DNA of 64,000 nucleotides from Sphingobium faniae (GTDB taxonomy: Bacteria > Pseudomonadota > Alphaproteobacteria > Sphingomonadales > Sphingomonadaceae). The notes under the pieces are model-generated. The model searched no databases and was not told the DNA's origin. It saw only the letters and a list, made by a program, of their open reading frames with translations. Position 1 is the first letter of the stretch. Every line of letters begins with the position of its first letter. Shown here in pieces: positions 31,860 through 54,127 of the stretch. The stretch covers positions 62,001 to 126,000 of the forward strand of contig FMTU01000010.1 in assembly GCA_900100475.1 (NCBI GenBank), given 5' to 3'. Position numbers and translations under genes: made by a program.

Positions 31860-32120
31860 GTTGAATTTGGATGACTCTCCATTTCGGCTCCCATAGATAT
31901 GAGTAACGAATTGGATAAGTACTTTAATAAATGATTAATCCGGGGCCGGGCGACTTTAGGAAAGTCAGCCTGGTGGGAGATCGAGCAAACACCGCATTAG
32001 CGAAGCCGCTCATGCAGCAAGATGGGAAGCATCCGTTCCGTTGGCAGTCATGCTTCGGGGTGAGTGGTTTTCTGCGCGCTTCTTCCACCGTCCCCCGCAG
32101 CAGCGTGTTGGGGAAGAGAG

Positions 32121-35100: not shown

Positions 35101-38100
35101 GAAAATCCGTCTTTTCGGGCGGTGGCTTCACGGGGGCGACGATCACCAACGCTTATGGCACGTTGCAGATCACCGGCTTCACGCCCGTGACCGGTGCCGA
35201 CGGCGACGTGATCGGCGGCGAACTCTTCTACAAATATACGCTGAACGACAATAGCCTGCTGCACAAGGGCGCCAATGACGGCAGCCTGACCGACAGCTTC
35301 CTGGTGGTGGTGACGGACACGGACAGCTCTGTCGCCAATGCAAGCCTCGACATCCGCGTGGTCGATGACGTCCCCATGGCGCATGACGATGTTGCGATCC
35401 AGACCAGCGAAAATACGCCGATCCTGATCGACGTCTTTGCCAATGATGTCGCCGGCGCGGACGGCGTCGACCTTTCCAGCGGCGTGGTGCTGGAAAGCGG
35501 CGCGGCCAAGGGCACGGTTGTCTATCAGGGAAATGGCGTTTTCCTTTACACTGCTGCGCCCGGCGCGGAAGGGGAAGACAGCTTCACCTACAAAATCATC
35601 GACGGCGATGGAGATCCGTCCATCGCCACGGTGACGATCACGCTGGCGGGCGATTCCAAGCCCAGCGTCCAGGTGTCCGATCTCACCGTTTGGGAAGCGG
35701 GCCTTCCGAACGGCACGCAGGCATCCGGCAATCTGGAAACCGACAGCGGCGTCATGACCATTGCGACCGGCGGCGACGCGCTGGCCAAAGTGGAAGTGCA
35801 GGGCAAGGACGGCTGGGTCGAAGTGACGGCCGCCACTGCCGGATCGCCGATCATCGTGTCGGGACTGGCGGGGCAACTCACCGTCACGTCCGATGGCGCG
35901 GGGCATTACAGCTACAGCTATACGTTGACCGCCAACGACCCGAATCATCCCGATCATGATCCGACCGATGGCGATGGCATCAGCGGCGCTGCCGATCCCA
36001 GGGCGGGAGACAGTTTCGCGGTTCGCGTGACGGACAGCGACGGCGATGTGTCGCCTGCGGACAGCATCCATGTGACCGTGCTGGACGACGCGCCGACGCT
36101 GACGGTAGGCGGCGCGACGAGCGTGGTGGAAGGCGCTACGGCGACGGGCACATGGTCGGAGGTGATTGGTGCGGACCAGCCGGGGGCGAGCACGGTCGTG
36201 CTGGTGGGCGCGAACAGCTATGCCATCGGAACGCCGATCAACACCGGCGTCGGCACGCTGACGGTCAAGGCCGATGGGACGTGGAGCTTCGCCGCCAGCA
36301 ACAATCTGAACAACAATGCTAATCCGTCTTTGAGCTTCACGGTGAAGGTCACGGATGCCGATGGCGACGTAGCGCAGGACACGCAGACCATCGGCATCAC
36401 CGATGGCGCGGGCCCCATGGCGGGAGCGGCGCTCGATCTGGCGCTGGACGATCAGAATCTGGCGGATGGGACGACGCCGGGCAATCCGGACTTTGCTTCG
36501 GGACTGGCGAGCTTTACCGCCGGTTCGGATGCCCTGACAGGGTTCGCCTTCGCCGCGGGCACGGGCGCGCTGGGCGGCGGGCTGACGTGGAACCGCGTGT
36601 CGGGGACGCTGATCGAAGGCTGGGACGGCCCGGTGAATACGGGCACGAAGATCGTGTCGCTGACGCTGTCGGCTCCAGCCTCCATCGCAGCGGGCGCGAG
36701 CGGCACGGTGACGGTCACGGCGACCCTGCTCGACAATTATGACAGCCATCCGGGCGTCAATCTGGATGACCTTGTCGCGCTGGGCAATATCGGCGTGGTG
36801 GCGTCCGATCAGGATGGCGACAGCGCGACCGTGACAGTCAATCTGACCGTGTCCGACGATGTCCCGACGGCGGTGGATGATGGACAGATCGCCAGCGTCG
36901 ACGACAATGCATCGGGCATTGTGATTGGCACGCTGTCCGGTCTGCTCGCCAATGACAGCTTCGGTGCGGATGGGCAGGGCTCGCCGTCGATCACGATCGC
37001 GACCGGAAGCCTGGGCGGCACAGTGACGATCAATGGCGGCAATCTGGTCTACGCCTCGCACCATGATATCACCGCGCCCTATGCGTCGGTGGTCGAGACG
37101 TTCACCTACACCATCAAGGATGGCGACGGCGATACGGCGACGGCAACCTTCACCGTCCAGTTGACGGACAGCGGCCCGACGCTTTCGCAGGCGGCGGCAT
37201 CCTTCACGGTTGACGAAGACGGATTGAACGGTGGCATCACAGCCCCCGCGCCCGGCGATGTTCCCGGCGCGGATGTCGTCAGGACGGGCACGCTCGCGGG
37301 CCTGAACTTCGGTGGGGACGGCCCGGGCGACATCGTGCTGGCGGCCATGGCGGATACCGGACTGCGGACGCTGTCAGGCCATGTCGTCGAAACGGTGTGG
37401 AACCCGGCGACGCATATGCTGACCGGGCAGGACGCCACCAACGGCACGCCTGTCTTTACATTGCAGATCACGAATGTTGTGACGGGAGCCTATCAATTCG
37501 AGTTGCTGGCCCCCATCAAGCACAGCAATCCGGCAAGCGAGGATGACAAATCGCTTTCCATCGGCGTGACGGTGAGGGACGCGGAGGGCGAGAGCGCTCA
37601 TGGCGCGATCAGCATCACGATCAACGATGACAGCCCGGCCCTGACGGTGGGAAGCGCCGCCGCCGGCGCGCTGGCGGTGGACGAAACGTCGCTGTCCACC
37701 GATGGGACCGCCAGTTTCGCCGGCCTGTTCACGCCTCAATATGGCGCGGACGGCGTGGGATCGGTGGGCAACTATGTGCTGGGTGTCAGTGCATCGGGCG
37801 CGGCGTCCGGCGTTTTCGATACCGCGACCGGCCATCAGGTTTTCCTGTTCCAGGAGGGCGGCAAGGTCGTTGGCCGTGCCGGCGCCAATGCGGGGACCGC
37901 CGCGGGAGGTCCGGTCGTCTTCCAGCTCAGTGTCGATGCGGCGGGCGTGGTCACGCTCGACCAGCAGCGCGCGGTGCTGCATTCGCCCGATAGCGGACCC
38001 AACCAGCCCCTGTCGATCACCACCGCCAGCCTCATCACGCTGACGGCGACGGTGACGGACGGGGATGGCGATACGGTGTCGGCGACGGCCCATATCGCCA

Positions 38101-40199: not shown

Positions 40200-40254
40200 C
40201 GGGGAATGCCGGGAAAATAACACACTGTCTCGCGGGGATATGGGGAGATTGGTT

Positions 40255-40968
40255 ATGGGATACGGAACAGGGATGATCGCATCCGTCAGCCTGATGGCTG
40301 TCGCGATGCCTTTGACGGCATGGGCGGCGCCGGCGTCGCCTTTGCTGCAACTCGACAGGTCATCGCTCAAGGAGGAACTGCGGAGCCGTTATGACGCGGC
40401 GGTCGCGGCGGCTGGCGATCCGGCCACGCGCGCCGCGCAGGACAGCCGCTTCACCTGGGCGGTCGAAGGCAAGAACCAGTGCGGCATCGCGCTCGGCTTT
40501 CTGAAATCCGGCACGAAGGATGCAGACAGCATCAACAAGTGCGACGCCTTTGTGGCCCGCCTTTCGGCGACGCCACCGCCGCCGGCGTCTCCCGCGCCGC
40601 CAGCCCTACCCGCGCTGGACTGCGTATCGGCGCCGGCGGTGTCCATCTTCTTCGACTGGAATCAGGACGTGCCCCTGCCTGAAGGGGCGGACACGATCTC
40701 CACTCTGGCCCGGTCGGCCGCGCAATGCGGCTGGGGCAACCTGACCGCGACGGGCTATACCGACACGTCGGGCACGACGGTCTATAATGACGGGCTGTCG
40801 CTCCGTCGCGCGCGCAACGTCGCCTCCATGCTGGAGCAGGCGGGCGTGGCGCCTGGTTCCCTGGCCGTGGAAGGCCGGGGCGAAACGCAGCTCAAGATCG
40901 AAACCGCCGATGGCGTTCGCGAACCGATGAACCGTCGGGTCGAAGTGACCGCCACGAGCGCGCAATAA
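40255..40968 (+). CDS. OmpA-domain protein of the adhesin locus
   Basis: A 237-residue protein with a signal peptide (ending TAWAAP), a short polar N-terminal domain with two cysteines, a proline linker (ATPPPPASPAPPALPA) and a C-terminal OmpA peptidoglycan-binding domain. The domain reads FFDWNQDVPLPEG, then GYTDTSGTTVYNDGLSLRRARNV and NRRVEV. GGGGAG precedes the ATG at 40255; an ATG at 40240 is also in frame. It lies 55 nt after the adhesin and 13 nt before the TolC gene. It probably ties the export channel or adhesin to peptidoglycan. Confidence 0.85.
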   Translation: MGYGTGMIASVSLMAVAMPLTAWAAPASPLLQLDRSSLKEELRSRYDAAVAAAGDPATRAAQDSRFTWAVEGKNQCGIALGFLKSGTKDADSINKCDAFVARLSATPPPPASPAPPALPALDCVSAPAVSIFFDWNQDVPLPEGADTISTLARSAAQCGWGNLTATGYTDTSGTTVYNDGLSLRRARNVASMLEQAGVAPGSLAVEGRGETQLKIETADGVREPMNRRVEVTATSAQ

Positions 40969-40981
40969 GGGGGAGCGGAAG

Positions 40982-42373
40982 ATGATCATGCACAAGACAT
41001 GCGGGAGCCTGATCGCCCTTTGCATCGCGGCGATGGGCGGATCGGCCCTGGCCCAGTCGACGGACCTCAAGAGCGCGATCGAGGCTGCGCTCGACAGCCA
41101 TCCCGAAATCAATCAGGCGATCCAGAACAAGCAGGCGATCGAGTTCGAGCGCGAACAGGCGAAGGGCCTGTTCCTGCCGCGCATCAGCGTCGAAGGGTCG
41201 GCGGGCATCCGCCGCCTGGAGAACCGCACACGCCGGTCGCTGGGCCTGGAGGACCAGACGCTCTATCCGATGGAAGCCGATGCGGTCATCGAGCAGACCC
41301 TCTTCGATTCAGGCTATCGCAGCGCGGAAAAGCGGCGGCAGGCCGCGCGCACCGATGGCGCTGCGCTGCGCGTCGGGGAACGGGCGCAGTTCGTGGCGCT
41401 GAACGTCACGCGTCAATATCTCGACTATATGCTGCAACAGCGGATCGTCGCGGCGTCGGAGGACAATATCGCCTTCCACCGCAAGCTGCTGGGCGACCTC
41501 AATGAAGGCGTGTCGCGCGGGTCGATCAGCATTGCCGACCAGCAGCAGGCCGAAGAGCGGCTGCAATCGGCGCTGGTGCGGAAAAGCGAGGCGGAGCAGG
41601 ACATGGTCAATGCCGAAATCTCCTTCCGCACGCTGACCGGCCTTTCCATTGATCAGGTGACGATGCCGGATGCCGTCACCGCCGCCGTGCCGCCGACGCT
41701 GGAGGACGCCATCGCGACCGCGCGCACCGACAACCCCCTCATCCGCGAGGCCGAGGCGGACATTCAGGCCGCCTATGCCGTCGTGGACGAGGCGAAAGCC
41801 GAGCTTGGGCCGACGGTGTCGCTGGAAGGGCGAGGCCGGGTTGGTCAGGACATGGACGGTTTCCGGGGCAGCACCAATGATGTCCAGGGCCGGGTCGTCG
41901 TCCGCTGGCAGCTCTATAATGGCGGCATCAACCGCGCGAAGGTGCAGGAAATGACCCGCCGCGCGAGCGAGGCCCGCTTCCGCCTGAGCCAGCGCGAGCG
42001 CGAGGCGGAGGATGACGTCCGCACGGCCTGGAACCGCTGGGACACGGAAAAGAAGCGGCTGGTGGACCTCCAGCGGCAGAGCACCGTGTCCGACGCGCTG
42101 CTGGTGTCCTATCGCGAACAGTTCAATGTCGGGCGGCGCTCGCTGCTGGACGTGCTGGACACGCAGAACACCCGCTATAATACGCTGGTGCGGGCGGAAA
42201 CGTCGCGTTTCTCGGAGATTTTTGCGCAATATCAGATCCTTGCGGCGGCCAACAAGCTGCTGGACGCCATGGGCCTGCCTGCGCCGTCCGACGCCGGGGC
42301 TTCCGCGCGCAAGGCATATGATGTGCCCGACCTGCCGCCTGCCGAATTGCAGAGGCGCCGTTATCCGGGCTGA
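40982..42373 (+). CDS. TolC-like outer-membrane channel (LapE-like)
   Basis: A 463-residue outer-membrane efflux protein of the type I secretion class. The signal peptide ends at ALAQ. Two TolC repeats follow, each with the coiled-coil helical segments (SIADQQQAEERLQSALVRKS and YREQFNVGRRSLLDVLDTQN, the latter diagnostic of T1SS TolC proteins). By analogy with LapE it would both export the adhesin and hold its retention module. It is in the operon with the ABC and adaptor genes. Confidence 0.92.
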   Translation: MIMHKTCGSLIALCIAAMGGSALAQSTDLKSAIEAALDSHPEINQAIQNKQAIEFEREQAKGLFLPRISVEGSAGIRRLENRTRRSLGLEDQTLYPMEADAVIEQTLFDSGYRSAEKRRQAARTDGAALRVGERAQFVALNVTRQYLDYMLQQRIVAASEDNIAFHRKLLGDLNEGVSRGSISIADQQQAEERLQSALVRKSEAEQDMVNAEISFRTLTGLSIDQVTMPDAVTAAVPPTLEDAIATARTDNPLIREAEADIQAAYAVVDEAKAELGPTVSLEGRGRVGQDMDGFRGSTNDVQGRVVVRWQLYNGGINRAKVQEMTRRASEARFRLSQREREAEDDVRTAWNRWDTEKKRLVDLQRQSTVSDALLVSYREQFNVGRRSLLDVLDTQNTRYNTLVRAETSRFSEIFAQYQILAAANKLLDAMGLPAPSDAGASARKAYDVPDLPPAELQRRRYPG

Positions 42374-42412
42374 GTTTCCAACAAGGGGCGTGAAGGCGCC
42401 GCGGGGTAGACA

Positions 42413-44584
42413 ATGCTGAACCGAAGCAGCGCGGGCAGTCTGGCCGAATGGCTGGACGATGCCCTGACGCCCAATGACGAACTGGCCGAATGCATCGCCC
42501 ATGTGGCGCGGCATTTCGACCGGTCGGCCGGGATCATCGGCCTGCGGGCGGGGCTCGCGCTGGACGAAAAGGGTTGCCTGCCATTCCATCAGGCGGAGTC
42601 CGCGCTCGATCAGGTCGGGCTGCTGGCCCATCCCGTGCGCGGACGGCTGGACAAATGGCGGGCGCATGACTTGCCCGCCATCCTGCCGCTGACCGAAGGG
42701 CGCTATCTGCTGCTGATGGACATGCAGGGCGGCGACGCGCTGGTCCACCTGCCGGGCATGGATGAGGCGATCTGGGTGCCGTCGGATCAGATCGCGCCCC
42801 GCTTCACGGGCGATGCGCTGGCCGTGCAGGCCGACCATGGGCGCGAACGATCGGAAGAACGGCCTTGGGACGAACGGGTGCGCCAGCACTGGTTCTGGCG
42901 CGAAGTATGGCGCGTGCGCGGTTCCTTCCTCTATGTCATGCTGGCGGCGGCGGTCATCAACCTGCTGGCCTTTGCGCTGCCGCTTTTCACGATGAACGTC
43001 TATGACCGGATCATCCCCAACAAGGCGGCGGCGAGCCTGTGGGTGCTGGGCGTCGGCGTGCTGCTGGCCTTTTCGCTCGACTTCGCGCTTCGCCTGGCGC
43101 GGTCGCGGCTGGTCGATGAAGCCGGTCGGGAGATTGACGAGCGGCTGTCGCAGCGCCTGTTCGAAAAGGTGATGAACGTGCCGCTCTCCGACCGGGCGGG
43201 GAGCACGGGCGCGCTGGCGCGGCGGGTGTCGGAATTTGAGATGGTGCGCGAATTCTTCGCCTCCACCACGGTCGTTCTGGCTGTCGATGTGGCCTTCCTG
43301 TTCCTGTTCGTCGCGCTGATCGCCCTGCTGGGCGGTTGGCTTGCCATGGTGCCGGTGGTCATGATGGGGATCATGGCGGCGGCGGGCTTTTTCCTGCAAC
43401 GGTCGATGGCGCGCCTGGCGCGTGACGCGCAGGCCGACGCCAGCCTGCAAAGCTCCACGCTGGTGGAAGCGATTGGCGGCATCGAGACGCTGAAGGCCTG
43501 CCGTGCCGAAGGGCGGATGCTCGACCGCTGGCGCCGCTATGCACGGATGAGCGCGGCGACGCAGGAAAAGCTGCGGCGGCTCAGCGCGACCAGCGTGACG
43601 CTGGCGGCGCTATGCCAGCAGGTGACGAGCATCGCGCTGGTGATCGGCGGCTTCTACATGTTCTCGGCGGGCAATATTTCGATGGGCGCGATCATCGCCA
43701 TCGTGATGCTGGCGGGGCGGTCGCTCGCGCCGGTCGGGCAGCTTGCCTTCGTGATCGTGCGGGCGCGGCAGGCGATGACGACGCTCGACAGCCTGCAAAC
43801 GCTGATCGACCAGCCCGACGAGCGGCTGGACGGGGCGCGGGGCATCATCCCCAGGATTCGCAATGGCGCGATCGTCGCGCAGGACATGCTGTTCGCTTAT
43901 CCGGGCGCGAGCCAGCCGAGCCTCAAGGGCATCAACCTGCGGATCGAGCCGGGCGAGCGGATCGGCATCATCGGGCGGGTGGCGTCGGGCAAATCGACGC
44001 TGGGCCGGGTGCTTTGCGGCCTCTATCCGCCCAGCGGCGGGCTGATGCTGGTGGATGACATCGACAGCCGCCAATATCATCCGCACGAATTGCGCGCCGC
44101 CTTCCGCTATGTCGGGCAGGACGCGGAACTGTTCAGCGGGTCGGTGCGCGAAAACCTGATGCTCGGCACGCAACGGGCAGATGACGAGCAACTGGTGGAG
44201 GCGCTGGAACGATCGGGCGCAGGGCGCTTCTTCGGGCGGGACGCGGCGGGCTTTGACCTGCATATCGGGGAGCGGGGCAGCCGCCTTTCGGGCGGGCAGC
44301 GCAGCTTTCTGGTGCTGGCCCGCGCCCTGGTCGATCCGTGCCGCCTGCTGTTCCTCGATGAACCGACCGGCGCGATGGATCATCAGACCGAAACGCTTTT
44401 CATCGACCATCTGGCAAAGGCGCTGCGGCCTGACCAGACGCTGATTGTGTCGACCCATCGGCATGGGCTGCTCAATCTGGTCGATCGCGTGCTGGTGATC
44501 GACCAGGGCATAGTGGTCGCCGACGGCCCGCGCGACCGGATCATCGGCCAGCTTCAGGGCATGGCGAAGGAAGGGGCGCAATGA
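42413..44584 (+). CDS. Type I secretion ABC exporter (LapB-like)
   Basis: A 723-residue fused permease-ATPase. The first 130 residues form a C39-peptidase-like domain without a catalytic cysteine, as in exporters of LapA and RTX proteins. Six transmembrane helices follow (about 165-445), then the nucleotide-binding domain with Walker A IGRVASGKST, signature RLSGGQRS, Walker B LLFLDEPTGAMD and H-loop VSTHRHG. The P-loop has Val-Ala in place of the common Pro-x-Gly. Adhesin, channel and adaptor genes are all in the same operon. The stop overlaps the next ATG by 4 nt. Confidence 0.93.
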   Translation: MLNRSSAGSLAEWLDDALTPNDELAECIAHVARHFDRSAGIIGLRAGLALDEKGCLPFHQAESALDQVGLLAHPVRGRLDKWRAHDLPAILPLTEGRYLLLMDMQGGDALVHLPGMDEAIWVPSDQIAPRFTGDALAVQADHGRERSEERPWDERVRQHWFWREVWRVRGSFLYVMLAAAVINLLAFALPLFTMNVYDRIIPNKAAASLWVLGVGVLLAFSLDFALRLARSRLVDEAGREIDERLSQRLFEKVMNVPLSDRAGSTGALARRVSEFEMVREFFASTTVVLAVDVAFLFLFVALIALLGGWLAMVPVVMMGIMAAAGFFLQRSMARLARDAQADASLQSSTLVEAIGGIETLKACRAEGRMLDRWRRYARMSAATQEKLRRLSATSVTLAALCQQVTSIALVIGGFYMFSAGNISMGAIIAIVMLAGRSLAPVGQLAFVIVRARQAMTTLDSLQTLIDQPDERLDGARGIIPRIRNGAIVAQDMLFAYPGASQPSLKGINLRIEPGERIGIIGRVASGKSTLGRVLCGLYPPSGGLMLVDDIDSRQYHPHELRAAFRYVGQDAELFSGSVRENLMLGTQRADDEQLVEALERSGAGRFFGRDAAGFDLHIGERGSRLSGGQRSFLVLARALVDPCRLLFLDEPTGAMDHQTETLFIDHLAKALRPDQTLIVSTHRHGLLNLVDRVLVIDQGIVVADGPRDRIIGQLQGMAKEGAQ

Positions 44585-45609
44585 ACCGGATGCGCGCCAG
44601 CCTGCTGTTCCGCAGCACCGCCGTAGCGGCTCCGGTGGCTGTGCTGATCGCGGGCGCGGCGTTCTGGAATCTCCATCGGGGAGAAGATGCGCCAAAGCCC
44701 GCCGTCTACGCTTCCACCACTGCCCATGAACGGACCATTCCCCGTCAATATGCGGCGCTGGTCCGCATGACGGAGGAGACCGGGGCCGCGCCCCAAGGGG
44801 ACGCCGCGCGGCAGGAAAACAGCCGCCTCGCCTTCGCGAAGGACGCCACTCGCGCCGCCGCGCCCTTTCGCATGGGACAGGCCGGGATGGATCATGATCG
44901 CGCCCTGCAATGCCTGACGCAGGCCATTTATTATGAAGCCGCGCGCGAGCCGGAGGACGGCCAGCGGGCAGTGGCGCAGGTCGTGCTGAACCGGCTGCGG
45001 CATCCGGCCTTCGCCAAGACGGTGTGCGGAGTTGTCTATGAACGGTTCCATGCCACGGTGTGCCAGTTCAGCTTCGTCTGCGACGGATCGCTGGCGCGGC
45101 GGCCCTTGCCCGGCCTTTGGGAGAAGGCGCGCCGCATCGCCGGGCAGGCGCTTGCCGGCACAGTCTATGCGGGCGTCGGCACCGCGACCCATTATCATGC
45201 CGATTATGTGTTCCCCCGCTGGGCGCCGCATCTGGCGAAGATTGAGCAGATCGGGGCGCATATCTTCTATCGCTGGCCCGGCGGCTGGGGCCTGCCCCGC
45301 GCCTTCACCGGCCTTTATGCGGGCAACGAACATATTCCCGCCTTCGACCCCGCGCGTTTCGCGGCGGTGGAGGAAGCGCGGATCGACTATCCGCCTGTCG
45401 CCGCGCTGCCCGAAAGGCGGGCGGCGGACGATCTGGGCGGACGGCTCGACCCGGCGAAGGGATGGACGCTTTCGATCCCCGATCCATCGCAGACGCGCGG
45501 TTCGCTGGACACCATGCTGGCGCAGCAGCAGCAGGGCGCGCCTTCCGCGCGCGCTGGTCAGACGGTGGCTCTGGCGGACGGGCAGGGACAAAAAGGGGTG
45601 AACCCATGA
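44581..45609 (+). CDS. SleB/CwlJ-type cell-wall hydrolase inside the exporter operon
   Basis: A 342-residue protein with an N-terminal membrane anchor or signal (APVAVLIAGAAFWNL) and a Hydrolase_2 domain (about 105-230). The domain reads LTQAIYYEAAREPEDGQRAV (catalytic Glu), VVLNRLRHPAF, CQFSFVCDG, GTATHYHADYVFP and W. Such enzymes cut peptidoglycan. The 4-nt overlaps with both the ABC exporter before and the adaptor after make it a built-in part of the secretion operon. It probably opens the wall for the channel complex. The C-terminal 100 residues are polar and unassigned. Confidence 0.87.
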   Translation: MNRMRASLLFRSTAVAAPVAVLIAGAAFWNLHRGEDAPKPAVYASTTAHERTIPRQYAALVRMTEETGAAPQGDAARQENSRLAFAKDATRAAAPFRMGQAGMDHDRALQCLTQAIYYEAAREPEDGQRAVAQVVLNRLRHPAFAKTVCGVVYERFHATVCQFSFVCDGSLARRPLPGLWEKARRIAGQALAGTVYAGVGTATHYHADYVFPRWAPHLAKIEQIGAHIFYRWPGGWGLPRAFTGLYAGNEHIPAFDPARFAAVEEARIDYPPVAALPERRAADDLGGRLDPAKGWTLSIPDPSQTRGSLDTMLAQQQQGAPSARAGQTVALADGQGQKGVNP

Positions 45610-46898
45610 TGGGGCGATGGATCAACTGGCTGCGGGAGAAAAGCGGCAGCCAACAGGTCATTCTTTACAGCGGCGGCGGCATGATCGTCTTTCTGCTATG
45701 GGCCGGCCTCGCCCCGGTGGACGAGGTGACGCACGGGCAGGGCCGCGTCATCCCCTCCAGCAAGGCGCAGGTCATCCAGAGCGCCGAGCCGACCACGATT
45801 GAGGAAATCCTGGTCCGGTCCGGGCAGAAGGTCGGCAAGGGGCAGTTGCTCGTCCGGCTGGACGACGCGATGCTGGCGTCCGAACTGGGGCAAATTCAGG
45901 CAGAGACGCGATCGCTGACCGCGCGGGCCGACCGGCTGGCCAGCGAAGGGACGGGCGCGGCGGCCACATCCTGCAACCCCGGCGCGGACGGGCGCGTCAG
46001 CAGCGAGTGCCAGCAGGAACAGGCGCTGGCGCAGGTGCGCGAATCCGCGCTTCGCAGCCGTCAGACGGGCCTGTCCGCGCAGGTCGAGCAGCGCCGCCGC
46101 GAAATGGGCGAGGCACAGGCGACCATCGACAGCCTGACCGGCAGCGTGCAGCTTTCGCGCAAGCGGGTGGAGATGCTGGAGCCGCTGGCGGCCAAGTCGA
46201 TCGTGCCGCAGACCGAATTGCTCGACGCGCGGCGCGAACTGGTCGACGCGCAGGGCCGCCTCGCCGCCGCCCGCCAGCAGGCTTCGCGCGCTGCCGCCGC
46301 CATTCAGGAGGCGCAGGCACAGCTTGCGGAGGCCAATTACCAGTTCCGGCAGGATGCGCTCAACGAACGCAGCCAGCTTGAGGCGAAGATCGCGGTCAAC
46401 AGCGAATCCCTGCGCGGCGCGCGCGGCCGGGCGCAGCGGGCGGAAATCCGTTCCCCGGTCGATGGCGTGGTGAACGATGTGCAGGTGACGACCATCGGCG
46501 GCTTCGTCAATGCGGGGCAGAAGATCATGCAGATCGTGCCCGTGGGGGAAAAGCTGCTGGTAGAAGCGCGGGTGAAGCCGAACGACATTGCCTTCATCAA
46601 GACGGGCGACAGGGCGGTGGTGAAGGTGACGGCCTATGACTTCTCCATCTATGGTGGCCTGTCGGGCACGGTGCAGCAGGTGTCGGCCGACAGCGTCTAT
46701 GACGAAGCGACGCGGGAGGCCTATTTCACCGTGGTGGTGGAAACCGACCGTGCCTATCTGGGGTCGGGCAAGCACCGCCTGCCGATCACGCCCGGCATGG
46801 TGTGCGACGTGGAGATATTGACGGGCCGCAAATCCGTGCTCGCCTATCTGCTCAAGCCCGTAATGAAAGCGCGGGACGAGGCGTTGCGGGAGCGTTGA
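45606..46898 (+). CDS. Type I secretion membrane-fusion protein (LapC/HlyD-like)
   Basis: A 430-residue periplasmic adaptor. The single N-terminal helix (LYSGGGMIVFLLWAGLA) is followed by DEVTHGQGRVIPSSKAQVIQ, the hallmark of HlyD-family adaptors. A lipoyl half-domain, a long coiled coil (about 100-290) and a C-terminal beta-barrel (RSPVDGVVNDVQVTTIGG, PGMVCDVEILTG) follow. The ATG at 45606 overlaps the preceding stop (ATGA); GGGGTGA lies upstream. It completes the ABC-adaptor-channel set for the adhesin. Confidence 0.93.
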   Translation: MMGRWINWLREKSGSQQVILYSGGGMIVFLLWAGLAPVDEVTHGQGRVIPSSKAQVIQSAEPTTIEEILVRSGQKVGKGQLLVRLDDAMLASELGQIQAETRSLTARADRLASEGTGAAATSCNPGADGRVSSECQQEQALAQVRESALRSRQTGLSAQVEQRRREMGEAQATIDSLTGSVQLSRKRVEMLEPLAAKSIVPQTELLDARRELVDAQGRLAAARQQASRAAAAIQEAQAQLAEANYQFRQDALNERSQLEAKIAVNSESLRGARGRAQRAEIRSPVDGVVNDVQVTTIGGFVNAGQKIMQIVPVGEKLLVEARVKPNDIAFIKTGDRAVVKVTAYDFSIYGGLSGTVQQVSADSVYDEATREAYFTVVVETDRAYLGSGKHRLPITPGMVCDVEILTGRKSVLAYLLKPVMKARDEALRER

Positions 46899-46957
46899 TC
46901 CGGAGCGGTTGCCAGACAATCGGGCCTGGCCGCTGGTACAGAAATTGGGGCGCGGGT

Positions 46958-48040
46958 TTATCGCGCGGCGAACTGCGTGGCACGGGGCGGCGTCACCCGA
47001 TAGCCGTGCGTCCACCGGCCAAAGGCGTTGAAGCTCAGAACCGGGCGATAGTCGCTGATCTGCGAAGAGGGCAATATCCGGTCCGTCATATTGTCGAGGA
47101 CCATCAGTTCCCCGTCGATCTGCACCGCCAGCACCGCATGATCCGCCCTGCGGACAAGATCCTTGACGATGACGAGGAACATCGAGCGCGGATGGAAACC
47201 CGCGGCTTCCAGCAGCTTCATCTTGGCGATGGCGTAATCCTCGCAATCACCCCTGCCTTGCTGGAGCGACTGAGCGGCCGTGGCCCAATGATCGGCCCCC
47301 GGCCTGTCATCGGTGAACCGGAGTTGCCTGTTGACCCAGATGTTGATGATCTCCGCCTGTTTCTGCCGGTCGGCATGGCGTGAACTCTGGACGATGGCGC
47401 TCCATTTGCCGCTTTGCGGAAGCGCGCGATTGGCGCTGGCCCATTTCGCGTCCAGCGAACTTTGCCGCAGCGGCAGCGCTACCGATCCGAAAATATCGGG
47501 CTTGCCCGACAGCCCCGTCGATGAAAGCAGCGCGGGCGCAGGGCGGGGGCTGATGATGAAGGGCGAGGCCTGCGGGACCGCCGCCGGGAGGATCGGTGTG
47601 GTGGCGGCGGTCAACCCTTGCATATAGGCAGGCACCGCGACGGGCACGCGGAAATGATCGTCCGATGCCCTGAACATGATGGCCATTCCCTGAATCCGCA
47701 GGGCGGGAAGCTGGCCGATAATGTCCGTTATGCGCTGGTTGTTGATGATCGGCGAAGCGGCGGGATGGACGGCATGTGCCTGTCCGTTCGCATGGGGTTC
47801 GTCCATCTGGCGGGCGCTGATTTCCATCAGCCGATTGCTTCCGCCGAACAGGTCCTGGCTCAGCCGCCTGTTGACCAGTGCGTCCCTATAGGAATCGGCG
47901 ACGCCCGAGCGGACGGAATCGATCGCGGTGATCCGGCTCGTCGCGGCAAGCCCTTGCGCCATCGCGGCTCCATGGGCCGCGCCCAGCAACGCAAGGCTGG
48001 CCATGACATGGGCTGACAGGGAGGAGGCAGGATGGGACAT
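46958..48040 (-). CDS. lapG: LapG-like periplasmic cysteine protease (BTLCP/DUF920)
   Basis: A 360-residue protease of the bacterial transglutaminase-like family. It has a signal peptide (MASLALLGAAHGAAMAQ) and a catalytic Cys in RGDCEDYAIAKMKLLEAAG (about C266), His in RRADHAVLAV (about H301) and Asp in MVLDNMTD (about D316). LapG cuts the retention module of LapA-type adhesins and frees them from the cell. The adhesin nearby has the PAAG target. It is longer than typical LapG because of about 100 extra residues, Pro/Ala-rich, ahead of the catalytic domain. The start is the ATG at 48040; the frame extends to a TTG at 48061 without a ribosome site. It is convergent with the adaptor gene, 59 nt away. 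No LapD receptor is in the window. Confidence 0.88.
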   Translation of the reverse strand: MSHPASSLSAHVMASLALLGAAHGAAMAQGLAATSRITAIDSVRSGVADSYRDALVNRRLSQDLFGGSNRLMEISARQMDEPHANGQAHAVHPAASPIINNQRITDIIGQLPALRIQGMAIMFRASDDHFRVPVAVPAYMQGLTAATTPILPAAVPQASPFIISPRPAPALLSSTGLSGKPDIFGSVALPLRQSSLDAKWASANRALPQSGKWSAIVQSSRHADRQKQAEIINIWVNRQLRFTDDRPGADHWATAAQSLQQGRGDCEDYAIAKMKLLEAAGFHPRSMFLVIVKDLVRRADHAVLAVQIDGELMVLDNMTDRILPSSQISDYRPVLSFNAFGRWTHGYRVTPPRATQFAAR

Positions 48041-48204
48041 GGCCCGCAATATGCCGGGCAAGCCATAATATTCAGTGCGCTCGCTTGGTTAATGGTCGCG
48101 TAACCGGGGCTTTTGGCCGCGTTATGACGGCAGGAAGCGATGGCCGCTGCGTCGTCGCGGCCATGGCGGGGAAGTGGGAAGGGCCGCCCGGAACAATGGC
48201 GCGC

Positions 48205-49476
48205 CTACATGCGCAGCACGATGGAAATCAGGGGATAGACGCCGTTTCTGCTGCCACGCTTGACATATTTCATGCCGCCTTCCGCCCAGATATGCCCTCC
48301 CGGCGAATAGCGGATGCCCAGATAATGCGCGTCCTGATTGAACCCTCTCTTATAGTCGTCGTGGCGGAGCCGGTAGAGCGCGGACCAGCTATCGTTGATC
48401 TGATAGTTCAACTGGCCGAGGGCCGTGCCCCGGATCGTATTGTCCAGATCGGGATTGGTGATGTAGTTCGCCGCGACCCTGAAGCGCCGCGTCAGGGCAT
48501 ATTCGGCGCCGATCCTGACCAGCGCGGTATTGCGAAGATCGTGCACGCTGGCCGCGTCGTCATCCAGATCGCGCAGCGCGCCCGTCCCCACGACGGTCGC
48601 GAAGCGCGGGTTCCACTGGGACCGGATTTCGGCTTCCACCTTGTGCGAGGTGAAGGTCGCTCCCGAATTTTCAAGCCGCGTGGGGCGCGCTGTATAACGC
48701 GCCGTCACGACATGCCGGTGGGTGATCGGGAAGGCGTAGCGGACCCGGTATTCCTGAAATCTGTCGATGGCGGAAAAATCGCTGACCGGGCCGTCATAGC
48801 GATAGTCCGAAAAGCGCGCCGTCAGTTCCAGGAAGTGATTGACGCCGAAATAATGGATATATCCGACCTTATTGTCCTTGCGCAGATAGACGTCCGGCCG
48901 CTCTTCCTGTTCATGTTCATAATAGACTTCCTCCCTTGAGAGGAAGGGGGCGGCGCCGCCGATTTTCCAGCTCTCGAACGAAAGGTCGTTTTCGTAGAAG
49001 GCATAGAGGCGCGGACTGGCCTCTCGCCGGAACTGGCGGATGCTGCGCTCCACGTCGCTGTCGTCCGGCCATCGCGCGGCCGCATCGGCATAGCGGGCGC
49101 GGGCGCGGCCGAAATCATGATCGTAACGATAGGATACCGCCACGCCCAGCGCCGCGTCAGTGCTGTCAGGCTCCAGTTGCAGGGCCTTTTCATAGGCTTC
49201 GCGCGATTCCCGAAGCTGGCCGTTCCACCGCAGCAGCTTGCCCAGCGCCCGCCAGGATTCCGCATCGTTCGGATCGGCGGCCAGCGCAGAGCGATAGGCG
49301 GCCATGGCGTCCTGCCAGCGATAGTCCCTGAGCTGCCGGTCGGTTTCCTCCGTCAGGGACAGGCCGGTGCCCGAATTGCCGCCCGCATTGGTCTGCGCCA
49401 TGGCCGTTTCGGCGGCGATGCCGAGGCAGGCGAGCGTGAGAGGCCCGATCGTTCGGATGATATTCGTGCCAGACAT
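48205..49476 (-). CDS. TPR plus outer-membrane beta-barrel protein (PgaA/YaiO-like exporter)
   Basis: A 423-residue protein with a signal peptide ending TAMAQ and TPR repeats at about 45-145 (QDAMAAYRSALAADPNDAES, LRESREAYEKALQLEPDSTD, GRARARYADAAARWPDDSD). The C-terminal region (155-423) alternates polar and aromatic residues as in a beta-barrel (FYENDLSFESW, YIHYFGVNHFLELTARFSDY). The layout is that of PgaA, the PNAG exporter, at reduced size. The ATG at 49476 has GGAAGG upstream. It follows the glycosyltransferase-hydrolase fusion by 20 nt and probably exports its polymer. Confidence 0.82.
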   Translation of the reverse strand: MSGTNIIRTIGPLTLACLGIAAETAMAQTNAGGNSGTGLSLTEETDRQLRDYRWQDAMAAYRSALAADPNDAESWRALGKLLRWNGQLRESREAYEKALQLEPDSTDAALGVAVSYRYDHDFGRARARYADAAARWPDDSDVERSIRQFRREASPRLYAFYENDLSFESWKIGGAAPFLSREEVYYEHEQEERPDVYLRKDNKVGYIHYFGVNHFLELTARFSDYRYDGPVSDFSAIDRFQEYRVRYAFPITHRHVVTARYTARPTRLENSGATFTSHKVEAEIRSQWNPRFATVVGTGALRDLDDDAASVHDLRNTALVRIGAEYALTRRFRVAANYITNPDLDNTIRGTALGQLNYQINDSWSALYRLRHDDYKRGFNQDAHYLGIRYSPGGHIWAEGGMKYVKRGSRNGVYPLISIVLRM

Positions 49477-49496: not shown

Positions 49497-51863
49497 TCAG
49501 GCCGATCCGCCTTCCTTCATGTCCCGGATGACCCGCCAATGCTCCGCGCGGAGCATGTGGGCGGGGGTGAGCCATATCTTGCGCGCGCCGCCACGCACCG
49601 CCGCGAACATGGCGGTCTTCATGTCCTCTGCCGTCAGGACGCTGCCCGACGCGCCCCAAAGCCCGATGGAGTGCCAGTAATTCTGGGCGCCCAGCGTACG
49701 GCTCATATATGAGGCGACGGACTGGCTTTCCTCGGCGGGGATATGGTCCAGCGCGAAATAGTCCCAGACCACGAACTGATCGACAAAGGGAGCCAGCAGC
49801 GGATAATCCTGCCCATTTTCCATGCTGTTGAGCAGGAAATCGCTGCGGCTGATCCTGACGTCGAAGAACAGGTTCTTGCTTGCGCGCTCGACGGTGGCGG
49901 ACAGGCGGGCGAGGATGGAGGCAACCTGCCGCGACCGCCATATGCCGATGGCCGGGTCGTCCCGGTCGATCTGGCCGTTCTTCCGCCTTGGCCAGTCGCC
50001 CCGGCCGGTGGCGTCCGCAAAGGCGCCTTTGCACCGCTCGCAGAAGCAATAGCTGTCGTAGAAAAGCTCGGTGATGTTGATGCTGTCGGCCTGATTGTGC
50101 CGGGCCAGCGCGTCGCAGGCTTCGGTCAGCAAGTCGCCAAACTCGCCCGCCGCCAGCCAGGTGGAGCACACGAATTCCCGGCTGGGCCAGCCGCTCCAGT
50201 GGATCGCGGCATATTGAGGATGGCGGGCCACATAGCGGGGGGCCAGCACGTCCAATATGGTGGTCGTGACGAAGCCCCGTTCCCGCAGCGCACTGACCGC
50301 TTCGTCCAGCATGTCGCCGTCATGGGACCGTTGATGGTCGCTCCACCATTTCCGCTGCCCGTCCCAGCGGAAATAGGTCCAGTCGGGGCGCCCTGCCGAA
50401 ATGGCGACCCGGTTGATGAAGGAGGACGCAGGGTTTTGCATGAAGAGGCGATAGGAATCGCGCCAGTCGGTCCAGTCCGCGAAATGGATCGCCGCGGCGA
50501 GTTGCGTGCTGGCCATCCTGATTGCGGCATCGCTCGATGGGCCATGGCCAAGCCGCGCCTGCAACGCATATCCGCCCGCCAGCCCGCCGCCCAGGAACAG
50601 GCCTCCGTTGAACACGACGCTGCGTCGGCTGGCGGCGGGGGCGCTGGCGGGCGACAGATCCAGCACGCTGCGGCGCTCCGGCTTGTTCCAGTTCTCCGAC
50701 CGCGACCGGAACTCGGCCCAGAGCGAATAGACGACAATGGCGTTATAGAAATGGCTGAGCGGCAGCAGCACCGCCAGATAGGGAAGATACAGCAGGTCGC
50801 GCGGCGATTTGTCGAGAAGGATGGCCGTCACCGCCGTCAGGATGAGCGATCCGACGCCCAGATAGGCGATCCACTCCAATGTCTTGAGGTGCAGCAGCCC
50901 GGTGTGGAGTGCGAAGGGCAGCAGGGCGAGGGCGAACCACTGAACCAGCGGAATGGCGATGAGGTTGAGCGTCAGCGTCGGCAGGAACCATCCGAACAGC
51001 CCATATCTGGGACGCAGGATCATGCCCTTGTAAAGCCGGGCGATCTTCATGTAGCTGCGGGTCCAGCGGACGCGTTGCCGCCACAGGCCGCGAAGATTAT
51101 TGGGACATTCCGCCAGAACGCGGGCCTGCGCGCCATAGACGATCCGCGCATCATGACGGTGCAGCCTGAACGTCAGTTCCAGATCTTCGCCCCAGATGTT
51201 GCGAAAACCCCCGATGCGCCGCAGGGTGTCGGTGCGGACCAGCCCCAGATTGCCGGGGATGATCGGCAGGATATTGGCCATGGACAGGGCGCGGCGCACA
51301 TAGCCGGTGCCGATATGCGACGTGACGACCAGCATCTTCTGCAACAGGCCCTGGGGTCGCAGCGGTGTGTCGTTGCCGCCCACGGCCTGCGTCCGGGGAT
51401 CGACGAAATAGGATATGCCGTTGCGGATCGTGTTCCGTTCGAACAGGGTGTCGGCGTCGGTGAAAAGCACGATTTCCCCGCGCGCCTCAGCCAATCCCCG
51501 GTTGAGCGCCGATGCCTTGCCGCCATTGTCCTTGACCAGATGGCGGATGGCGTTGCTGTCGATATGACGTTGAAGCGCGCGCTCCGTCCCGTCTGTCGAC
51601 CCGTCATTGATGACGATCACCTCGAAATCGGGATAGTCCGATTTCAGGATCGACTGGATGCAAAGGGCAATGGTGCGCTCTTCATTATAGGCGGGAACCA
51701 ATATGGTGACGCTGGGGGTGTAGGCTTCCGTTCGGGCGCGGCGGAGAATCCTGCGCTCCCAGAAGGGATAGGTGAGCGCCAGCGGCATGTAGAACAGCGA
51801 GAGCAGGCCGAAATAGAAACAGGCCGCCCCGAACAGCGCGAAGAGAAGGGACAGGGGCCACAT
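49497..51863 (-). CDS. Fusion: processive GT2 glycosyltransferase plus extracytoplasmic glycoside-hydrolase-like domain
   Basis: A 788-residue membrane protein. Residues 1-30 form a helix. Residues 50-270 are a GT2 domain with D87 (NDGSTDG), D136/D138 (FTDADTLF), D227 (GEDLEL) and QRVRW at 263-267, the signature of processive synthases such as PgaC, NodC and hyaluronan synthase. About four helices follow to residue 385. A further helix near 415-435 (VVFNGGLFLGGGLAGGYAL) leads to a 330-residue TIM-barrel-like domain containing ITELFYDSYCFCERCKGAF, reminiscent of GH-like and PgaB C-terminal domains. The layout suggests synthesis in the cytoplasm and trimming of the chain outside. It overlaps the ATP-grasp gene by 1 nt. 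Confidence 0.85.
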   Translation of the reverse strand: MWPLSLLFALFGAACFYFGLLSLFYMPLALTYPFWERRILRRARTEAYTPSVTILVPAYNEERTIALCIQSILKSDYPDFEVIVINDGSTDGTERALQRHIDSNAIRHLVKDNGGKASALNRGLAEARGEIVLFTDADTLFERNTIRNGISYFVDPRTQAVGGNDTPLRPQGLLQKMLVVTSHIGTGYVRRALSMANILPIIPGNLGLVRTDTLRRIGGFRNIWGEDLELTFRLHRHDARIVYGAQARVLAECPNNLRGLWRQRVRWTRSYMKIARLYKGMILRPRYGLFGWFLPTLTLNLIAIPLVQWFALALLPFALHTGLLHLKTLEWIAYLGVGSLILTAVTAILLDKSPRDLLYLPYLAVLLPLSHFYNAIVVYSLWAEFRSRSENWNKPERRSVLDLSPASAPAASRRSVVFNGGLFLGGGLAGGYALQARLGHGPSSDAAIRMASTQLAAAIHFADWTDWRDSYRLFMQNPASSFINRVAISAGRPDWTYFRWDGQRKWWSDHQRSHDGDMLDEAVSALRERGFVTTTILDVLAPRYVARHPQYAAIHWSGWPSREFVCSTWLAAGEFGDLLTEACDALARHNQADSINITELFYDSYCFCERCKGAFADATGRGDWPRRKNGQIDRDDPAIGIWRSRQVASILARLSATVERASKNLFFDVRISRSDFLLNSMENGQDYPLLAPFVDQFVVWDYFALDHIPAEESQSVASYMSRTLGAQNYWHSIGLWGASGSVLTAEDMKTAMFAAVRGGARKIWLTPAHMLRAEHWRVIRDMKEGGSA

Positions 51864-52756
51864 CAGCCCAGATGCCTCTGCTCATGCAGCAGCGCCATGT
51901 TCGCGATGATGTCGGGGACCATCTGGACATGGGCGCCGATCCGCGCGTTGATTTCCAATATGCGCGGCCTTCCATCCCGGTCGCGGCGAATGTCCATGTC
52001 CAGGGGACCGGCCAGGCCCAGCGTTCGGGCCGCGGCGACGGCAAGGCTTTGCACGTCGCGGGGACGCCGGGGCCTTAGTGCCAGCGCATTGCCGACCCGT
52101 CCTTCCCGCAATTGCGTCTTTTCGAAAATGCCCTTGGCCAGCAGCCTGAACGGCGGGTCGGGATGGATCAGCAACTGGACGTCATATTCCTTGCCCGGCA
52201 TGAATTCCTGCCAGAGCAGCAGGTCGTCGGCATCCATGTTCGCCGGCTCATCATGGATGACGACGCCACGGCCGCCTCGCCCGATGCGGGGTTTGGAAAT
52301 CAGGGGATAGCGCAGCCACCGCATCGGTGAACGCCCCAATGCGCTGCGGGGCACGGCGATGTCATGCGCGGCAAGCGCCTGCGCCGTTTGCCATTTGTCG
52401 TGGCAGATGGCGACGGGATGGGATCTGGAGATGAAGACGGCCACGCCCGCCGACCGGAAGAACATCGCATGATCGGCGATCAGGGGCAATTCCTCCGCGA
52501 CGGTGGGGAACAGCCAGGATGCGCCCTTTGCCCCGGCCAATGCGTGCAGGATCGGCAGATAATCGGCGTCCGTGGCGGGCGGGACCAGTGCAAATTCCTG
52601 GGCTTCGCAATCGCCCACCCGTTGCATGTCGACACCGACGACATGATAGTCGAGCGCGCGCAACGACTGCACGGCCGCCCGTCCGGCCGGGCCGCCCACA
52701 CCGGTTATCAGGACCGAGCGCCGGGGCCCTGCCCGCCGCGCCGATGCCTGCTGCAT
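51863..52756 (-). CDS. ATP-grasp ligase (carbamoyl-phosphate-synthase/PylC-like)
   Basis: A 297-residue enzyme starting at the ATG at 52756, which overlaps the deacetylase stop (TGATG). An N-terminal Rossmann-like fold reads SVLITGVGGPAGRAAVQSLR. The ATP-grasp domain follows with PLISKPRIGRGGRGVVI (ATP-binding lysine and glycine loop), WQEFMPGKEYDVQLLI and the metal-binding PRILEINARIGAH. Such enzymes join a carboxylate to an amine or other nucleophile through an acyl phosphate. Its place between a sugar deacetylase and a polysaccharide synthase suggests acylation of a freed amino sugar, but the substrate is unknown. No signal peptide is present, so it is cytoplasmic. Confidence 0.85.
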   Translation of the reverse strand: MQQASARRAGPRRSVLITGVGGPAGRAAVQSLRALDYHVVGVDMQRVGDCEAQEFALVPPATDADYLPILHALAGAKGASWLFPTVAEELPLIADHAMFFRSAGVAVFISRSHPVAICHDKWQTAQALAAHDIAVPRSALGRSPMRWLRYPLISKPRIGRGGRGVVIHDEPANMDADDLLLWQEFMPGKEYDVQLLIHPDPPFRLLAKGIFEKTQLREGRVGNALALRPRRPRDVQSLAVAAARTLGLAGPLDMDIRRDRDGRPRILEINARIGAHVQMVPDIIANMALLHEQRHLG

Positions 52757-53688
52757 CACATCGCTCCCAGCACGGCGCGAATGGCGATAAACCCTTCGGC
52801 GAAACGCACTTTCGCCTGATTGCCGCGCACCCGCGCGATGCTGCGGATCAGTTCCGGCTTGAAATAGGATTTGCGGGTCTGGCTGCTGTGGCATTGCAGG
52901 GCGCGGATCTTGAAGTCCAGGCAGTCCGACACATCGACGAAGAAATTCGGCCTGAATTCGGGCGGCGTGTTGGGATTTTCATAACATAGGACGGTCGGGA
53001 CATTCCGACACGCTTCGACCGTGGCGTTGAACACCATCCGATGATCGGAATGGCGGTCGAAATTATTGTGGGTGAAAACCACGTCCGGATTATATTTCCT
53101 GATCGCTTCTTCTATCGCCGATTTGATGCCGTCCCGCCGCGACGTCATGCCGCAGTCGGGGAAGTTGAGGATGGTCAGCGATGACAATCGCATGACCTCG
53201 CCCCCTTTGTGGGCTTCGCGGCGGCGGCTGTTGTGCAGGGGGGTCGGACTGGCGCCCAGTCCATTTTCTCCGCTGGAAAGAATCAGCGCATGCGTGGCAA
53301 AGCCCTGCTTGCGATAATGGAGCAAGGCCGCGCCGCAGCCGAATTCGACATCGTCGGGATGGGCGCCGATCGCCAGAATGGCCTTTGTCGGAGCGGGCGC
53401 CGCCTGCCTGCCCCTATTATACCGAAAACCAATGCCGGCCATGGTGACGACGGAAAAGGCGATAGCGGTATGGGAGAACAGGTCGCTTCTGAACGATAAA
53501 TCGCTGCCAAGGGCGTTCATGAAAACATGACCGTAGATGAAGGCGCATGTCAGAAATGCGATATTGATCATCGACAGAACGGGAAATCGCCATCTCGATT
53601 CAATGATGTTGTAATATAGACATTCGGAAGCGATTATCATGATGATCATGAAAACACAAAAATACTGGATGCCGCTGGCGCTTCTCAT
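52756..53688 (-). CDS. Membrane-anchored PIG-L/LmbE-type deacetylase
   Basis: A 310-residue protein. Three hydrophobic segments (about 8-32, 38-60 and 75-95) precede a PIG-L domain with the zinc motif AIGAHPDDVEFGCG, the Ser-Gly-Glu-Asn-Gly segment LSSGENG, and HSDHR near residue 205. PIG-L enzymes remove N-acetyl groups from sugars such as GlcNAc. The positively charged RYNRGR after helix 3 suggests that the catalytic domain is cytoplasmic. The ATG at 53688 has GGAAGGTGGG upstream. It is the first gene of the coupled polysaccharide operon. It takes the role that a CE4 deacetylase (PgaB) has in PNAG systems. Confidence 0.88.
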   Translation of the reverse strand: MRSASGIQYFCVFMIIMIIASECLYYNIIESRWRFPVLSMINIAFLTCAFIYGHVFMNALGSDLSFRSDLFSHTAIAFSVVTMAGIGFRYNRGRQAAPAPTKAILAIGAHPDDVEFGCGAALLHYRKQGFATHALILSSGENGLGASPTPLHNSRRREAHKGGEVMRLSSLTILNFPDCGMTSRRDGIKSAIEEAIRKYNPDVVFTHNNFDRHSDHRMVFNATVEACRNVPTVLCYENPNTPPEFRPNFFVDVSDCLDFKIRALQCHSSQTRKSYFKPELIRSIARVRGNQAKVRFAEGFIAIRAVLGAM

Positions 53689-54127
53689 AACCCACCTTCC
53701 CCTTACGCACTGGACTGGCAGCGTCCCAAAAGAAAAAGCGACCTTTGTTATATATAAGAAGTCATATTTTCGCATGAGACATGGATTCGAATCGAAGCCA
53801 TATCGTTAACATATGAGAAATATAACAGCGTCAGCGGAAAGATGTTAAATTAAATAATGATCATTCGATTATCAATATAAAACAGATGTTTATGATGTTA
53901 TTAGTATGATTTGTAAAATTTTACGCATGTCATATATATCAGAGTGGATATTTGAATTTATATTATAAGATACATCTCGTTCGATATAGATGTGCTTGCG
54001 TTCCAATAGTCGGCCACTTTTGGCGTGGTCGATCATTGGCTCCATCGCGTTGTGCCGGCGCAACTCGCGCATAACGCTACTCCGCGAGAATGCGCGAAAT
54101 AAACTTGCGCCTTGCCTTTTCTGGAGG
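53689..54127. other. AT-rich spacer upstream of the polysaccharide operon
   Basis: No gene is supported. The stretch 53,790-53,990 is the most AT-rich part of the neighbourhood, with several short dyads, and should contain the promoter of the deacetylase operon on the minus strand. I cannot assign a -35/-10 pair with confidence. Confidence 0.4.

Follow-up and report, generated by a model that had tools for sequence, protein, structure and literature searches.

A glycosyltransferase fused to a distant relative of the PgaB hydrolase domain in a Sphingobium faniae operon

Synthase-dependent polysaccharide systems of the PNAG type keep the glycosyltransferase in the inner membrane and the hydrolase in a separate protein. 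In a stretch of 64,000 nucleotides of Sphingobium faniae DNA (contig FMTU01000010.1, positions 62,001 to 126,000, hereafter the window) one open reading frame appears to combine both, which raises the question what the domain behind the synthase is, on which side of the membrane it lies and whether it may act on the chain that the synthase makes.

The fusion protein and its operon

Counted from its ATG, the open reading frame 49497-51863 on the reverse strand encodes 788 residues, composed of a processive-type GT2, an extra membrane segment and a PgaB-like, hydrolase-like (GHL) domain. As judged from the Pfam match, motifs and hydropathy, the synthase part comprises residues 1-401 (50661..51863, reverse strand), with the catalytic core at residues about 50-270. 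It matches Pfam Glycos_transf_2 (PF00535) with 102.7 bits (cut-off 23.3) and carries the motifs DGS at 87, DAD at 136, GED at 225 and QRVRW at 263; the QxxRW motif is a mark of processive GT2 enzymes. With this family match and the D, DxD, ED and QxxRW motifs all present, the processive PgaC/NodC-type GT2 proposed by an earlier, sequence-only reading is borne out. The best NCBIfam GT2 match is PgaC/IcaA (TIGR03937), whose 150.6 bits lie below the cut-off of 422.3, and weak matches to HpnB and HpnI were recorded in addition.

Hydropathy analysis gave hydrophobic segments at residues 6-24, 289-319, 332-350 and 360-381, followed, after a positively charged linker with seven K/R and four D/E, by an extra segment at residues 416-434 (50562..50618, reverse strand). 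This segment is weaker than the others (mean hydropathy 1.33) and glycine-rich, and corresponds to the additional helix that had been read behind the synthase helices. Ahead of this segment lies the stretch SRRSVVFNGGLFLGGG (window 50590-50625), which is reminiscent of a twin-arginine signal. SRRSVVFNGG was considered as a Tat-like signal and the idea dropped, since among the four Myxococcota proteins only L019 retains an RR.

A hydrophobic segment precedes the domain in all five full-length fused proteins, four of which were scored (1.33-2.46) while that of L017 was recognized by eye, and the net charge of the linker is +1 to +3 in the four scored proteins. Because an Arthrobacter homologue of the domain is a predicted lipoprotein (see below) and because of the linker charge, the C-terminal domain is most likely extracytoplasmic, as the sequence-only reading had it. 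A cytoplasmic domain, or an accidental fusion without function, would be in keeping with the glycine-rich and moderately hydrophobic segment of the window protein, but we regard it as very improbable in view of the hydrophobic segment in every full-length fusion, the net positive linkers of the four scored proteins, the lipoprotein homologue and the conservation of the domain between phyla.

The fusion is the third gene of a four-gene operon, whose order from 5' to 3' is PIG-L deacetylase, ATP-grasp protein, GT2-domain fusion and a TPR protein with a predicted outer-membrane beta-barrel (all on the reverse strand). The PIG-L type deacetylase (52756..53775; Pfam and hydropathy) has three N-terminal hydrophobic segments, a PF02585 match of 104.2 bits (cut-off 28.2) and an AHPDD motif at residue 138. 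The start of the ATP-grasp protein (51863..52756) was set at the TGATG overlap, the mechanical open reading frame beginning at 52894. Both the PIG-L/ATP-grasp and the ATP-grasp/GT2 junctions are TGATG with a one-base stop/start overlap, and the barrel gene (48205..49476), which encodes a probable export port, begins 20 bases past the stop of the fusion. For the barrel protein, the YaiO family model TIGR04390, against which E. coli YaiO scores 182.4, is absent among 17 NCBIfam matches. A promoter scan and an Rfam search made no contribution to the present reading. The PIG-L gene (52756-53775) has a G+C content of 0.546, lower than that of the window (0.623) and of the other operon genes (0.62-0.66).

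A PIG-L protein followed by an ATP-grasp protein points to a precursor that is deacetylated and modified anew ahead of polymerisation. Loop 1 of the PIG-L protein is strongly positive in three Myxococcota relatives (6-7 K/R, no D/E), so that by the positive-inside rule the PIG-L catalytic domain would be cytoplasmic, an assignment drawn from hydropathy and charge alone. In these Myxococcota proteins (L005 4158-5978, L017 5370-7196, L018 5191-7011) the deacetylase is preceded by a signal-like segment at the N-terminus, numerous TPRs and three hydrophobic segments, so that periplasmic TPRs are apparently joined to a cytoplasmic enzyme.

The same two enzymes also permit a different product. In analogy to the logic of mycothiol and bacillithiol, in which a glycosyltransferase, a deacetylase and a ligase cooperate, the GT2 could make a glycolipid or short glycoconjugate that is modified by PIG-L and ATP-grasp, with the C-terminal domain trimming or transferring it. 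This is consistent with the 104.2 bits that the PIG-L protein scores against the bacillithiol deacetylase BshB1 (NCBIfam; below its cut-off of 182.5), with the recurrence of an ATP-grasp gene in the clusters of the window, of Myxococcota and of Arthrobacter and with the weak HpnB and HpnI matches. We nevertheless consider a glycoconjugate quite unlikely, as QRVRW is typical of processive enzymes, the best GT2 family match, below cut-off as it is, is PgaC/IcaA, and the adjoining TPR-barrel protein fits the export of a chain.

A large-adhesin module (window 32064-48061) adjoins the operon. It contains an open reading frame of 2711 residues with Big_9, cadherin-like and DUF5801 domains (32064-40199, forward strand), a LapG-like protease (46958-48061, reverse strand; Peptidase_C93 over and NCBIfam LapG below the cut-off), an OmpA-domain protein, a TolC-type protein, a type I secretion ABC transporter and an HlyD adaptor. 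The polysaccharide operon and a retained adhesin may form one biofilm locus.

Conservation and distribution of the C-terminal domain

The C-terminal domain of the fusion comprises about 330 conserved residues. On an Arthrobacter plasmid, which carries PIG-L, ATP-grasp and GT2 (425 residues) genes in this order, the domain follows as a separate protein of 375 residues that shares 35% identity with its window counterpart across 297 residues (E 6e-52 for that pair). Furthermore, fused homologues from four Myxococcota genomes align with it. Consequently, the extension is neither a chance product nor read-through, and the roughly 330 additional residues of the sequence-only reading are real. The Arthrobacter protein has a lipobox-like LTGVAAC, read by eye, which makes it a predicted lipoprotein, and its gene overlaps the GT2 gene by four bases.

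Few genomes carry the domain. Matches came from 1 of 94 genomes of the genus (the window's own) and from 2 of 298 genomes of the family, the second match (G244) being a frame of 67 residues interrupted by three internal stops that was set aside as chance; the phylum and class samples gave 1 of 398 and 1 of 385 genomes, respectively, whereby the genus, family, phylum and class draws overlap. Among Myxococcota, the phylum of the L005 genome, 5 of 195 genomes matched. Four of these matches are full-length fusions of 790-812 residues beside ATP-grasp, TPR-barrel and PIG-L genes, and the fifth is a piece of 269 residues running off its contig. In L005 itself, from a Myxococcales bacterium, genes of the three remaining types accompany a GT2 truncated by the contig end, and no domain match was obtained in this genome, whose contig stops inside the GT2. 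Scans of viral contigs (with the alignments A1 and A3) and of phages revealed no relatives of the domain, and in the plasmid scans the Arthrobacter record was the only one.

In a tree of the GT2 parts the fused set, six rows with L005 counted as fused despite its contig ending before the domain, forms one group (support 87/98). The split Arthrobacter GT2 and E. coli YaiP fall on the side of the fused set, and PgaC and a group of GH18-deacetylase-GT2 proteins on the opposite side (97/94), although YaiP and PgaC have very long branches and their placement is unsure.

Alignment of seven C-terminal-domain homologues (A3; one of them, P0002, is partial and begins just before D538) unveiled four invariant acids, namely D538, E599, D668 and D695, and the family also retains many aromatic residues including W700, Y702, W736 and W776. 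Glu599 (codon 50067..50069, reverse strand) opens the motif ELFYDS (residues 599-604), of which the glutamate alone is invariant. Two features from the motifs of the sequence-only reading did not hold as functional marks: D603 of ELFYDS recurs in Arthrobacter and is substituted in the Myxococcota rows, and the cysteine cluster CFCERC (residues 606-611; 50031..50048, reverse strand) occurs in the window protein alone among the seven homologues, for which reason a family metal site was rejected. The window domain is cysteine-rich (50031-50185), with Cys 566 and Cys 583 beside the cluster, whereas five other counted proteins have no or one cysteine in the domain; a lineage-specific disulfide or metal site is possible.

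Relationship to PgaB

No Pfam or NCBIfam family covers the C-terminal domain above its cut-off. For PF14883 (GHL13), the Pfam family of the PgaB domain, there was no match up to E 1 in the window protein or the six other members (0 of 1 in the window's own genome). Below threshold, the Pfam matches of the members all concern glycosyl-hydrolase-like families or DUF4838, with three of seven members matching GHL10 (best 19.2 bits against a cut-off of 27.9), three of seven GHL6 and one of seven DUF4838. Sequence searches of the PDB returned chance matches alone (LRP2, E 0.0055; DNA polymerase III delta'). AlphaFold2 models reached a mean pLDDT of 39.0 for the GHL domain alone and of 41.9 for the whole protein together with one relative (L005), both too poor for assigning a fold.

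The relationship was assessed by profile-profile alignment of A3 with a PgaB template (GHL13) built from E. coli PgaB and six members of PF14883. The alignment extends over 281 columns with a probability of 57% and a single-pair P of 1e-4. None of 150 column-shuffled and none of 150 block-shuffled templates reached the real score, and the reversed PgaB template scored 14.3 compared with 41.0 for the real one. With match states taken from the first row, P was 2.8e-5 for GHL13, 0.0011 for GHL10, 0.041 for GH18, 0.13 for ATP-grasp, 0.17 for GT2, 0.19 for CE4 and 0.22 for PIG-L, as single-pair values uncorrected for the seven profiles compared, whereby the GHL10 profile of two rows and the partly truncated GH18 profile give weaker comparisons. 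Omission of the template row L031 weakened the match of A3 with PgaB to P 0.025; the pairing of E599 discussed below persisted. These results support the view that, among the seven profiles compared, the domain at residues about 455-783 (49515..50501, reverse strand; bounds from the homologue and profile alignments) is closest to the GH153 domain of PgaB, as a distant relative of it, and the profile alignment points to a possible (beta/alpha)8 fold.

All 13 jackknife runs paired E599 with D466 of E. coli PgaB, the first Asp of FHDD. The probable catalytic residue of Bordetella PgaB is D474, in H473-D474 (PMC5933820, available part); the equivalence of D466 with D474 rests on the common HD motif, D466 going unnamed in that part of the source. 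The position of the catalytic Asp is thus occupied by Glu in all seven domain members, and this Glu could still act as an acid. For the sequence-only proposal of a hydrolase-like domain this means that the remote similarity to PgaB GH153 and an invariant acid speak in its favour, whereas no GH153/PF14883 match exceeds the Pfam cut-off and the catalytic Asp is replaced.

The same replacement leaves room for a non-catalytic, TIM-barrel-like carbohydrate-binding domain that would keep hold of the chain as it appears and pass it on to the TPR-barrel protein. The many retained aromatics W700, Y702, W736 and W776 would suit a binder, and the C-terminal domain of PgaB, too, was initially reported to bind PNAG and to be critical for export (PMC5933820, available part). 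According to the same source, however, the aligned PgaB domain turned out to be an active hydrolase, and four acids invariant in seven divergent homologues are more than simple binding should fix. Pure binding is hence conceivable, and we judge it somewhat unlikely.

Compared with PgaB, the window domain shares the role of a putative extracytoplasmic partner of a PgaC-type GT2, the 281 matched columns and the acid at the catalytic position. It differs in being fused to the C-terminus of the synthase without a CE4 deacetylase domain, in the Glu for Asp exchange and in staying below the Pfam GHL13 threshold; the other charged groove residues of PgaB were not located in the window domain family. 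Furthermore, the deacetylase of the operon is a PIG-L protein that is predicted to be cytoplasmic, whereas deacetylation in the PNAG system is periplasmic.

Related synthases and a proposed mechanism

The E. coli K-12 genes yaiO-yaiX-yaiP-yaiS (L022 4070-8617) look like a relative of the window pathway. Like the operon, yaiS-yaiP-yaiX-yaiO has a PIG-L gene first (YaiS, 35% identical), then a GT2 gene (YaiP, 28%) and an outer-membrane protein gene last. YaiP (398 residues), however, has no GHL domain, the locus is without ATP-grasp, yaiX (an annotated acyltransferase, interrupted by IS2 in MG1655) sits between the GT2 and outer-membrane genes, and the window barrel has no BLASTP similarity to YaiO. 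A literature search on yaiO, yaiP and yaiS yielded, judging by titles, no paper on function.

Within the same family the nearest GT2 relatives (E 1e-40 or better) occur in 15 of 397 genomes, not counting that of the window, all in open frames of 1116-1219 residues. All four that were examined (L038, L039, L040 and L043) are GH18-polysaccharide deacetylase-GT2 proteins, the GH18 part being cut by the locus edge and scoring just under or over the Pfam cut-off. Like the fusion, these proteins and L006 hold a GT2 and a hydrolase-like domain in one polypeptide, together with a deacetylase domain; unlike in the fusion, the hydrolase-like domain is N-terminal and GH18-like. As the GT2 parts fall into separate tree groups (97/94), the two fusions look independent, and the GH18 form is apparently an independent solution to joining synthase and hydrolase. 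The idea of a hydrolase tethered to its synthase is not peculiar to the window protein, and a fusion of GT2 and hydrolase-like domain is already known in the GH18-deacetylase-GT2 form of the same family. A survey also describes pgaB clades of Gram-negative bacteria that have a GT fused at the N-terminus (PMC7112194, available part), so that a GT is likewise joined to an extracytoplasmic modifying enzyme; there the fused enzyme is a deacetylase and, as far as the available part describes them, those members have no hydrolase domain. In a literature search, with most subscription journals outside its coverage, no description of a GT2 with the present C-terminal GHL architecture was found.

Taking the evidence together, we moderately favour the view that the operon encodes a synthase-dependent machine for an exopolysaccharide (or oligosaccharide), with a PgaB-like glycoside hydrolase domain built into the inner-membrane GT2 on its extracytoplasmic side. 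PIG-L would deacetylate a precursor and ATP-grasp would then re-modify it before polymerisation, both presumably facing the cytoplasm. The GT2 would build an amino-sugar-type chain from the cytoplasm and pass it through its own membrane helices, whereupon the tethered (beta/alpha)8-type domain would grip and probably cut the emerging chain, with Glu599 as the main catalytic candidate. The TPR-barrel protein would then carry the chain across the outer membrane. In PNAG export, PgaB is bound by the TPR region of PgaA, which stimulates both its deacetylase and its hydrolase activity (PMC9384988, available part). The sequence-only reading further envisaged that a tethered hydrolase may set the chain length or open a gap for export. 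A fuller version, which we consider unlikely, is a so far undescribed pathway in which the precursor is deacetylated by PIG-L and re-conjugated by an ATP-grasp ligase in the cytoplasm and the synthase, through a new PgaB-related hydrolase family, cuts each chain at the channel mouth, so that synthesis, export and chain length would be set by one molecule.

The role of the hydrolase in polysaccharide export systems is not fully understood and is system specific (PMC5933820, available part). The recurrence of the synthase-domain fusion in unrelated bacteria suggests that the building of a chain and its trimming or guiding are coupled. Since the hydrolase-like domain is fixed to the synthase with one copy per synthase, chain-length control and export could be separated here without altering the dose or place of the domain, and Arthrobacter, which lacks an outer membrane, would offer with its split form a naturally untethered counterpart.
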